Positions 3,866 to 9,116 of a DNA stretch of 47,966 nucleotides are shown here, one piece after another. The stretch lies in assembly GCA_009733715.1 (NCBI GenBank), contig WMKJ01000099.1, positions 1 to 47,966 of the forward strand. Direction: 5' to 3'. Positions within the stretch are counted from its first letter, which is position 1, and each line of letters starts with the position of its first letter. Source of the DNA: Herpomyces periplanetae (Eukaryota; Ascomycota; Laboulbeniomycetes; Herpomycetales; Herpomycetaceae). The position numbers and the translations under genes are program-made. The notes beneath the pieces are model-generated. The model worked only from the letters and a program-made list of their open reading frames with translations, ran no database searches and was not told the origin of the DNA.

Positions 3866-4218
3866 TTTTCTTACTTTAACTATCGCCCCTCCCCATCTTT
3901 CTCTCTATACATAGATATGCATGCTTCAATGTATAAATGTATATGGCTAACCTCCGTCAGAAAATGTTATTGCTGTTGGTGCTGCAATAGATCTTCTTAA
4001 CGGCCTGTCTCATCCAGCCCACCTCTTTCATCTCCTTCGTTATAATGAACTTGTGTGCATGCTTTTGTATAAGACCTCTCTAACCACTGACCGCTTCCGC
4101 ATTGTCAGTTATCCATCGTTCCGTCAAACTTCTCCATTTTTTTAAAAGTGCGTGTATGTGAACTCCTCGTCACAACCAGTCATTTTTCCTTGCCTTCGTC
4201 TTTTCTATTTTTCCCAAA

Positions 4219-4248
4219 ATGCTTCCCCTCGCTCCTATCATTTTGTGA
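4219..4248 (+). promoter_or_regulatory. Upstream ORF in the hacA leader
   Basis: A 9-codon ORF (MLPLAPIIL, then TGA) uses the last ATG before the hacA start and ends about 170 nt upstream of it. uORFs in the hacA/hac1 leader are known in Aspergillus and Trichoderma, where they limit translation until a shorter transcript is made under ER stress. A similar role here is inference. Confidence 0.45.
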
Positions 4249-4416
4249 ATTGTAAGCTTACTGCAAATTATTCCACCTTCGTCCTCTCCATACCATCTCC
4301 TTCCTTCAACCTCAACTAACCTCTAACCCTATCACACTCTTTACCTTCTCCTCAACAGTGAATAAAACTCCTCTTTAAAGTGCACTGGCTATCCTTTACT
4401 ATCTACCCAATCCCGG

Positions 4417-5828
4417 ATGACCATGTCTCTAACATTGAATGATAAACCTTCAGTTTCAAACCTAAAATTACCATCCTCTTCGCCAATAACCATAAAATCT
4501 TCCCCCTCCTCTCCAACCTTCAATACAGATCTATCCTTCAGGTTAACCCAAGAATTACTTCACATACAAAATGAACAAACCAATCATATCCCCCAACTCA
4601 TCTTGGCCGGTCGAGCAAGCACTGATTCCATGGAAAATATTAACCCTGATTCTAATTCCGATACAAATATCGTTAATCCTAATATACACCAGCCTTTCAA
4701 CAATAACAATAATAACAGCAGCAGTAGCAGCAACAGCAACAGCAGTAACAACATTAATAACAATCGAAACAGGGCTACTAGTCCAACTTTTTCAAGCGTT
4801 AAAAAGGAAACAAAAGACACCAGCGGTGAAGAAGACAATGCAAATCGTCAGCATGATAGGCATAGTGGACGAAACTTTAAAAAACGAAAATCCTGGGGAC
4901 AAGTGTTACCTGAACCTAAAACGAATCTTCCGCCTAGGAAACGGGCGAAAACGGAAGATGAAAAGGAGCAAAGAAGAATCGAACGTGTTAAACGTAATAG
5001 ACTTGCTGCCCATAATTCTCGAGAGCGTAAACGTCAAGAAGTTGAACGTCTCTACGCCGAAAAACACGCTTTACACCAACAAGTTCTCCGCATGCAACTC
5101 CAAATCTCTCGCCTCCAACAAGAACTGCGCCATCACCGCCACTCCCCCCCAGACCCCTCCTGCTTCGCCTCACCTGCGCCACTCCCCTCCGACTTGGCTC
5201 CCGATGTGTCTCCGGTTGTTTCGAATGGGGCCTTGCCGACTCAGGAGCCGCCGATGCCGATGCCTATGTCTGCACCAAGCCCAATGCCGATAGTTAAACC
5301 TCCGATGACAACTTCTCCTTCTACACCGACCATGATTTCTACGTCCATTTCATCTTCGTTTTTAACTCCCGTTTCCGCTCCAGTTCCCGCTCCCGCTCCC
5401 GCTCCCGCTCCCCCTTTAACCCCTACCCCTACCACCTCCGCTTCAACTTTTTCGCCTTGCTTAGAGTTCACCAAGACACAACATTCTGCCGTAATGTTGT
5501 TCTTATTCGACCTGCAGTGTCCGAAGAGCTCTTTGCTTGTGCTACTCCTTCATGTATCCCTTTACTTCTTTCTCCCGCTTCTTCTCTTTCTACTAAACCA
5601 GATGGTGAAGTCCTCGATTTTTTAGACGATTCCTTCACCGTCTTTCCCCATAACTCCCCCGCCCTTTTTCCCCTACACTCCCCTCCTACTCCTCCCGCTT
5701 CCATCTCGACTTCCTTACCTCCCCCCGCCGCTCAACCATGTTCCACCTTCTACGATTTCTTCGAAACTTTTCTTGATTTACCCGCCGAATCGAGCGCACC
5801 AGATCATTTATCCCCTTCTTTCTTATGA
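4417..5828 (+). CDS. hacA: HacA/Hac1-type bZIP transcription factor of the unfolded protein response (spliced form)
   Basis: This is the ER-stress bZIP activator. Before the basic region it carries the HacA signature RKSWGQ, PKTNLPPRKRAK and TEDEKEQRRIERV. The basic region has the N-x7-R core (N194...R202), followed by a leucine zipper to about residue 240. The N-terminus holds Asn/Ser runs and the middle a Pro-Ala hexamer repeat. Frame 1 runs to 5625 (402 aa, unspliced). Removal of the Ire1 intron at 5492-5517 shifts to the frame ending at 5828 and gives a 461-aa protein with an acidic/aromatic C-terminus (EVLDFLDDSF, FYDFFETFLDL) that looks like an activation domain. No conventional intron is needed. 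I chose the first ATG at 4417; a second in-frame ATG at 4423 is possible. It converges with the laccase gene. Known targets of the family are ER chaperones and secretion genes. Identity is very secure. Confidence 0.95.
5478..5525 (+). promoter_or_regulatory. Unconventional Ire1 intron (5492-5517, 26 nt) with twin hairpins
   Basis: The first hairpin has an 8-bp stem (ACAACATT with AATGTTGT) and a 7-nt loop CTGCCGT. The second has stem TTCGAC with GTCCGAA (one bulged C) and a 7-nt loop CTGCAGT. Both loops fit the Ire1 consensus C-N-G-N-N-G|N. Cutting after G5491 and G5517 removes 26 nt and changes the frame by two, joining QHSAV to SEELFACATP. There is no GT-AG pair at these ends. The 26-nt length differs from the 20 nt known in Aspergillus and Trichoderma. 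Confidence 0.95.
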
Positions 5829-6380: not shown

Positions 6381-9116
6381 TTACAATCCAGAATCTGTTT
6401 GTAACAATCTTACACCATCCTGATACCTTCTCCAAGTATAACATCCCTTTTCATTCTCTGAAAAATTCCTCACCCGCTGTGATACCTCACGGGCTCTTTC
6501 GATAAACTGTAATCCAAATCCAGTCGCTACATGAAATGGTATGTGACAATGCATTAACCACGCTCCCGGGTTATCCATTTGGAACGCCAATACCAAATAC
6601 CCATGCCCCGGTATATTCGCCGTATCCCTCCTCATCGGATTGGCAAAATTCATACTCGATTGCGCTGTAAAACTTCCCACACCCTGTCCAATCACCATAA
6701 AATCGTGCCCGTGTAAGTGTATAGGATGCGGTGACTCGGGCGTTTGTCGATCGGATTGAATTACCCAGTACGTCCAATCCTCCCCTTCTCCTAAATTATA
6801 TATATTATACTCGCGTGGAAAGCTAAAATTTCCCCGCACAACACCCTCTAGTGTCGGTCTTCTCCAATCAATTCGTAACGCTGAATTATCTATGGTCCAT
6901 TGTACTGCGTTACCTTGAACGCTCGTTAATTTGAACGATTCCATTAGTACTCGTGGCATCCTTCTCGGTACCGCTATGTTAAACCAAGGCTGTAATCCAG
7001 GCTGATCATAACATCCTGAACTTAACTTTATCCCTTGACTTCGCGGTACTTCATCAACCGGTGCTCCCTCATATCGAAATATCGCCCTAACATCACTACC
7101 CCGTCGATTCTTCCCATCACATTCCACTCCTCCACTCGATCCTATTCCAACTCTTAACCAGTAACTTCCCACCGCTTGTCCCTCTCCTCCAATTATCACA
7201 TCATACCGTTGTCCCACTCCAATAACTAATTCATTCGTTTTAAACGGTTTAACCGGCACAAAATCCGCTCCCACCACCGTAAATGGATGTCCATCCAACG
7301 AAACGTGAAAGTATTGGTTAATTCCCGTATTAATTAATCTCAATAAATGCTTCTTACCCGCTTGAAGCTTCGTTACTGACATTCCCCTACCCGTTCCATC
7401 AAACGCTCCCGTCGTTCCGTTAATCAATACATTATCCGCCGTAAAATCTTGTAACATATTCCCTTTACCATTCCGTGATACATCTGTTAGTGGTGTATGA
7501 AACCAATCCGTTATCGGAAGCACTCCCAAATCAATATCATAATTTGCCGTTGAAGGTCCATGTATAATAATCATTCCCAATAACCCTTCACCATACTGGC
7601 TTGAGTAATGACTATGATACCATCCCGTTCCATACTGCCGAGCTTGGAATTGGTAAACCCTTCGTCCTCCTGGCGTAATCGGACATTCTGTTACTCCATT
7701 TACTCCATCCATTTCATTCGTTCCCGCCTGATGAATTCCATGCCAATGCACTGATATTCCATCTCGACGCAATCGATTAGTTATAACCACTCGAACTGTA
7801 TCACCCCAGTTAGCTTCAATCAACGGCCCCGGGTACTGTCCGTTAAACACAAGCATTCGCCTAGGCACCCCATCCGGTGCAAGCGTTTTTTCCTCTGCTT
7901 CAAGATAGTACGTTCTAACCCGACCACTTGTCGGAAATTCCCTTCGAATATCCGTATTAATATTGTATCTGCCGTACCAGCACTGTCTAGATTGTGCAGA
8001 ATGTGCACACCTATTCCAGTCAAATCTGCCGTTTAAATTACTGCCATCTCCGCCATTAATTCCCGGTAGCGGAGAAATCACTCCACTTCCTCTTCCCCCT
8101 CTTCGTCCGTATAAATCGCCTGGTGTACCGGCTACGTAGCTCGGTGCCGGTACATTAACTCTCGGAAGCGTTGTATACGTCGGTGGAATAGTTGGCATCA
8201 TCGCCGGTGGCAACGTTAATATCGGAACCGCTGTATACGCTGGAAATCCAGGTGTCACCGATATTACGCTCGATCCTCCGTATCCTGGATATATCTGTAT
8301 TCCTGGGGGTACATGAATCGGTGCCTAACCAGGCGTAGACGGTACCGGTCGTGGAATTTGCCCATAATACCCCGGTCCAAAGTATCCTCCATACCTTGGA
8401 TAGGGATAATTTACCATAGGAATCCCAAATACCTTTCCATATGATGGATAACCCCGAGGATAATTTGTTGCATACGGTGGATAGTATCCAAAGGGCATTG
8501 GAATATGGTATCCTGGAGGCGGTGGTGGTAGTGGTAGTGATGGTGGTGGCGGTGGAAGCGGTGGTGGTGCAAAGCCCCAGTAAATCGGACGTCTTCCCCA
8601 GCCAAAGGAAAGATTTGTCGATGCTATGGAAATATTGCCACCATGAGATGATGATGCGTCCTGTGGGTCATCTTGATTTTCAAGTCTCTTGGTGTTAGTT
8701 AGCACTTTATTTTGATTATCATGGACTTTAGTTTCTTTGGATAAAGCCACATCGTATGATATAGACGCTTCTTGCGTGTCCTTTCTTCCCATACTCATCC
8801 CGTCAACCGAAGGAGTTGCTAGTATTGATTTTGCTTCATTGTTGTCCTTTATTAAATTTTCCACCCCAGTTTCATCCCTCTCTTCTCCATTAAAATTATT
8901 CCCGTGCGAAACGCTCAACCATGTTGACTCGTTCAAATCTGTGTTAGTCCCCGCCCCAAAAATCGGAAGCGGTGCTTGAATTTCTGCAAATCCATGAAGT
9001 TCATGTGACAATGATGAAGGTGATTGTACCGATGTTAATGTATTCTCGTTCACTTTGTTTCCCGAGACTCCTATGTTAAAAAGTAATTGTACAACCAAAA
9101 TAGATTTCACTCTCAT
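6381..9116 (-). CDS. Ascomycete-type laccase (multicopper oxidase) with a long secreted Pro-rich N-terminal region and one in-frame TAG
   Basis: The uninterrupted catalytic ORF is 6381-8258 (625 aa from its first ATG). It has all four copper motifs: HWHG at 171-174, WYHSH at 213-217, HPIHLHGHDF at 511-520 and HCHIPFH at 570-576. The type-1 axial position (Cys+10) is Phe, where Leu is common in ascomycete laccases. The protein ends exactly in DSGL, the C-terminal plug motif of ascomycete laccases. This ORF has no signal peptide. In the same frame upstream, 8325-9116 begins with a typical signal peptide (MRVKSILVVQLLFNIGVSG) and continues as a Ser/Thr-rich, then Pro/Tyr/Gly-rich segment. Only the TAG at 8325-8327 separates the two, and the Pro-Gly-Tyr composition runs across it. 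I read one secreted enzyme oxidising phenols. The stop is either spliced out, read through, or a true lesion or sequence error. Confidence 0.85.
8285..8329 (-). other. In-frame stop in the laccase gene, possible 45-nt intron
   Basis: The minus strand reads CCT GGT TAG GCA at 8325-8333. A donor-like GTTAGG starts at 8329, and an acceptor ATATATCCAG ends at 8285. Removing these 45 nt keeps the frame and deletes the TAG, joining STPG to YGGSS. A 27-nt alternative ends at CCCCCAG. No clear branch site is visible, and 45 nt is shorter than any other intron I find here (66 nt). Confidence 0.35.

Follow-up and report, generated by a model that had tools for sequence, protein, structure and literature searches.

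Unconventional introns removed by Ire1 are known from the HAC1 genes of a range of fungi. They measure 20 nt in the hacA/HAC1 genes of Aspergillus, Trichoderma reesei and Verticillium dahliae, according to PMC11508391 and PMC8071499, and 23 nt in N. crassa hac-1, a length reported in PMC4488935 as confirmed by cDNA. Values of 19 nt in C. albicans and 29 nt in Yarrowia HAC1 are given in PMC10608004, and other published lengths are 56 nt in Cryptococcus HXL1 and 626 to almost 850 nt in C. parapsilosis and L. elongisporus; the animal XBP1 intron is 26 nt. The Ire1 motif is stated in PMC6037481 to be CNG/CNGN or CNG/ANGN in S. cerevisiae and CUG/CAG for human IRE1 alpha (slashes mark the cut). In Aspergillus, CTGCAG words lie on both sides of the intron, and as described in PMC11508391 the cut is not fixable from the product.

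The DNA analysed here is a window of 47,966 nucleotides, and the gene at 4417–5828 on its plus strand is identified from its sequence as hacA (HAC1). Its features, in window positions, are:

4417–5488, plus strand: hacA exon 1, an uninterrupted open reading frame from the first in-frame ATG, with the bZIP at about residues 182–237, ending after base 3 of the 5′ loop
5489–5514, plus strand: predicted 26-nt unconventional intron, positioned by the published motif (an earlier placement at 5492–5517 was 3 nt too far)
5515–5828, plus strand: predicted hacA exon 2, the spliced frame, with TGA at 5826–5828
5489–5625, plus strand: alternative 3′ end if the mRNA stays unspliced (402-aa form), an open reading frame
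5479–5499, plus strand: 5′ Ire1 hairpin with loop CTG/CCGT (5486–5492) on a perfect 7-bp stem (5479–5485/5493–5499), cut as in PMC6037481
5473–5504, plus strand: further pairing that would bring the 5′ stem to 12 bp, in which 5473–5476 and 5478 pair with 5500–5504 and C5477 is bulged (fold prediction)
5506–5525, plus strand: 3′ Ire1 hairpin with loop CTG/CAGT (5512–5518) on a 6-bp stem (5506–5511/5519–5525) with one bulged C
5500–5508, plus strand: stretch with the two codons that are extra relative to 20-nt introns, from protein alignment, which does not fix the exact six bases

The bZIP region (residues 150–245) matched 1661 proteins at E ≤ 1e-6 in a database search. Among the best 120 of these 1661, identity across the aligned part is 66–94%, the named organisms are mostly Dothideomycetes, and in three entries the source name is 'transcriptional activator HAC1'. 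Pfam bZIP_1 scores 21.4 bits on the protein, below the Pfam cut-off of 27.6 bits; its homology to fungal HAC1-like proteins marks it as a bZIP of the HAC1 type. Residues 94–118 are rich in asparagine and serine, and an imperfect tandem repeat of six bases (CTCCCG) at 5366–5412 in exon 1 codes for a proline/alanine-rich stretch.

Ten ATGs precede the hacA start within 3901–4416, including a 9-codon upstream ORF at 4219–4248; upstream ORFs are discussed in PMC8071499 as translation control of fungal HAC1. An intronless gene for a 606-aa multicopper oxidase (laccase-like) lies convergent with hacA at 6381–8201 on the minus strand, and between 17136 and 37309 Pfam recognises bystin, a protein kinase, TFIIB, an AAA ATPase, Sec61/SecY, a lyase and a cytochrome P450.

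The original prediction for this gene was a 26-nt Ire1 intron between two hairpins with seven-base loops, and the loops are present where it placed them: CTGCCGT (5486–5492) and CTGCAGT (5512–5518), spaced 26 nt. Both fit CNG/CNGN, as CTG/CCGT and CTG/CAGT. The description of both stems as near perfect holds for the 5′ stem, whose 7 bp are without fault and have pair probabilities of 0.87–0.99 in each of five stretches folded, and was generous for the 3′ stem, with 6 bp, a bulged C and probabilities of 0.40–0.92. The minimum-energy fold of 5470–5545 (−14.3) lacks the 3′ hairpin, and the twin structure with the extended 5′ stem scores −9.9. This is the sole twin CNGNNGN hairpin (7 + 6 bp) on both strands of the window, which hold 867 CNGNNGN loops; no twin was seen in 200 dinucleotide shuffles, where single loops with at least 7 bp appeared at 0.32 per shuffle, the stem thresholds of 7 and 6 bp having been picked only after the site was seen. 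Searched against the 13,790,361-base assembly, a pattern derived from the site gave a single hit and its reversed control gave none. The Rfam search of the window matched no family. No pairing was found between the putative leader (3901–4416) and 5473–5530 with exact words of 7–12 bases, so a translation block of the S. cerevisiae type is not indicated.

The unspliced frame runs from 4417 to a stop at 5625 and encodes 402 aa. Removal of 26 nt fuses the bZIP frame with a second frame and replaces the C-terminus by a new coding one of 103 codons, giving 461 aa in total, in line with the predicted second frame of about 100 codons. Codon usage in the downstream frame scores 0.206 bits per codon; the in-frame median for eight other ORFs of the window is 0.200, and of 1710 overlapping segments taken out of frame or in reverse, 1.1% reach the score of the downstream frame. 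The openness of the frame is itself weak evidence, as 10% of composition shuffles are also open. Tails of Ire1-spliced HAC1 proteins diverge, and homology of the spliced C-terminus is not strictly defining for them; compared with a profile of the tails of 8 spliced-type relatives, the tail encoded here showed similarity not above that of shuffles (rank 402 among about 1000).

The assembly encodes both enzymes that such splicing would use. One Ire1 gene carries kinase and Ribonuc_2-5A domains, with yeast IRE1 as its best solved relative (E 6.6e-94); no Ire1 luminal-domain family was detected at E ≤ 0.001. One Trl1 gene carries ligase, kinase and phosphodiesterase domains, and its ORF, counted from the first ATG, begins inside the ligase domain profile. 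Both frames are open.

RPB2 places the genome, by sequence, in the Dothideomycetes beside Eremomyces. Among the matches listed, its RPB2 is nearest to that of Eremomyces bilateralis (75–78% identity), other listed Dothideomycetes and relatives being mostly at 69–75%. At so low an identity to its partner, the lineage may represent a family or order not yet described. A tree of this RPB2 and 44 of the best 120 listed rows pairs it with E. bilateralis (SH-aLRT 100) inside the Dothideomycetes, on long branches (path 0.86); the top-scoring listed row, an arachnid protein at 48% identity, was left out. The RPB2 gene (L012:1202–5431) encodes 1410 aa, compared with mostly 1190–1290 in the listed relatives, and has glycine/serine/asparagine-rich stretches near the N-terminus. 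The assembly totals 13.8 Mb in 220 contigs, which is small for a Dothideomycete, and could represent a reduced or an incomplete genome.

Taken as a whole, it is very probable that this is a hacA (HAC1) gene whose 26-nt intron is cut by Ire1 under ER stress and whose exons are rejoined by Trl1, in a relative of Eremomyces within the Dothideomycetes. In the stressed cell, Ire1 cuts in the mRNA behind the CTG of each seven-base loop (after 5488 and after 5514) would release 26 nt, and Trl1 would ligate 5488 to 5515. The reading frame would then switch, and the bZIP protein would gain a different end of 103 residues, becoming 461 aa long instead of 402 aa. We infer from these features that splicing takes place, that it depends on stress and that it activates the protein.

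The exact cut was proposed earlier to follow the sixth base of each loop (C-N-G-N-N-G/N), and spliced reads were expected to join 5491 to 5518. The fit of the loops to this pattern stands; the cut does not, since the published motif cuts after the third base (PMC6037481), which gives an intron of 5489–5514 and a corrected junction of 5488/5515, the length being unaffected. Cleavage after base 6 would also leave the protein unchanged at 461 aa, but it contradicts both CNG/CNGN of S. cerevisiae and CUG/CAG of human IRE1 alpha, as these are set out in the same source, and we regard it as highly improbable. The two mRNAs would be one base apart, because the loops differ (CTGCCG and CTGCAG), and spliced reads can therefore separate the two cuts. 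The Ire1-spliced mRNA is predicted to show CTGCAGTGTCC over the junction; mRNA from the base-3 cut would carry CTGCAGTG and that from the base-6 cut CTGCCGTG, the predicted products being CTG/CAGTGTCC (5488 to 5515) and CTGCCGTGTCC, respectively. Read aligners may set the 5488/5515 junction anywhere between 5485/5512 and 5489/5516.

The frame switch might instead be produced by a conventional GT-AG intron. Twelve GT-AG combinations of 30–200 nt would connect exon 1 with the second frame, among them a 38-nt one at 5491–5528 (GTAATG...GAAGAG), and several database relatives have an apparent conventional splice in their gene models at this place. None of the 12 frame-compatible pairs has a GTRNG donor (0/12) or a CTRAY branch motif (0/12), and all were rejected as spliceosomal introns for lack of a consensus donor and branch site. 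GT-AG splicing would also leave the twin CNGNNGN hairpins unexplained, and Ire1 splicing of HAC1 is published for N. crassa (PMC4488935) and V. dahliae (PMC8071499); there is very little probability that a conventional intron is responsible. Nor is it at all likely that a genuine Ire1 site has become vestigial, with the gene working unspliced and the six extra bases reflecting drift. In favour of this are the 13.8-Mb assembly, small for the class, the weak 3′ hairpin and the tail without recognisable conservation; against it, both loops are preserved, excision of 26 nt (2 mod 3) continues to change the frame, gene-like codon usage is kept in the spliced frame, and the Ire1 and Trl1 frames are open. 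The best reading of the locus, supported by sequence comparison, is a filamentous-ascomycete type of HacA Ire1 intron with six additional nucleotides.

Since the unspliced frame passes through the intron, predicted proteins reveal the intron's length, and the comparison of intron length in relatives proposed with the original prediction was run on them. The read-through peptide here is AVMLFLFDLQC (11 residues), and that of the relatives is of the type AxxLCDLQC (9 residues). Nine residues, equivalent to 20 nt, were found in 89 of the best 120 of the 1661 relatives, a sample biased to Dothideomycetes; in 105 of these 120 the spacing of 9 residues holds up to the DL or beyond. None of the 120 had a longer spacing (15 were unreadable at that place). 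By this protein comparison, 20 nt is the norm among readable relatives and 26 nt is a two-codon (six-nt) extension, which supports the proposal of a filamentous-fungus intron lengthened by six nucleotides. A spliced-type AVSV junction was present in 8 of the best 120 of 1661 relatives, in five directly after a TQ/TR-H/Y-S/P motif; P0010, P0046, P0066, P0078 and P0111 have the direct AVSV junction of spliced-form HAC1. In many other relatives the gene model continues across the Ire1 intron, or has an odd end or splice within it. A search with the intron-coded stretch only (residues 340–385) gave 2 candidates and no match at E ≤ 10, and is uninformative on the frequency of 26 nt. No fungal HAC1 intron of 26 nt was found among the matches listed from the open-licence literature, and those on hacA in Dothideomycete genera held nothing on the intron.

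Of the described introns, that of N. crassa hac-1 shares with this one a filamentous ascomycete host, the 3′ word CTGCAG, a length of 2 mod 3, the frame switch and the twin hairpins. It is one codon shorter and confirmed by cDNA, whereas the intron here is predicted from sequence; its 5′ word is CTGCTG and here CTGCCG, and in both species the 5′ word differs from the 3′ word, which makes the junction resolvable. Aspergillus, T. reesei and V. dahliae agree in loop words, gene and frame switch and differ in having 20 nt. The Dothideomycete HAC1-like genes (89 of the best 120 of 1661) have the bZIP and the read-through peptide in common with this gene, which exceeds their implied 20 nt by two codons. 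Yarrowia HAC1 and animal XBP1 belong to other lineages and have the same kind of twin loops, the Yarrowia intron being 3 nt longer than the one here and that of XBP1 equal in length; the match with XBP1 is taken as coincidence.

A role for the additional bases is suggested by the predicted fold, in which 5500–5504 pair with 5473–5478 of the exon and one unpaired base is left before the 3′ hairpin. Equal pairing arose by chance with 1.4% of gene-derived hexamers and 1.8% of shuffled exon sides, and the evidence that the extra bases make the 7-bp 5′ stem about 12 bp long is suggestive only. It is conceivable, though doubtful, that the two codons have been kept for this exon pairing (a 5′ hairpin of about 12 bp) and do not form a loose linker, so that the hairpins almost touch as in 20-nt introns. 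If so, the 5′ site would be strengthened and the hairpin spacing seen by Ire1 would be held despite the longer intron, a case in nature of intron length uncoupled from hairpin spacing.

The original prediction overstated the importance of the length, 23 nt being known in N. crassa and 19 to almost 850 nt in other fungi. As N. crassa already has 23 nt, the 26-nt intron is a modest variant of an ordinary, known class, and knowledge of Ire1 is unchanged by it. It joins the series 20, 23, 26 and 29 nt, whose members lie one codon apart, so that the frame switch is kept. The finding is useful to gene annotators, since such genes often receive wrong gene models. Owing to the single-base difference between its loops, one sequenced spliced transcript of this gene would, unlike in Aspergillus, show precisely where Ire1 cuts in a filamentous fungus.
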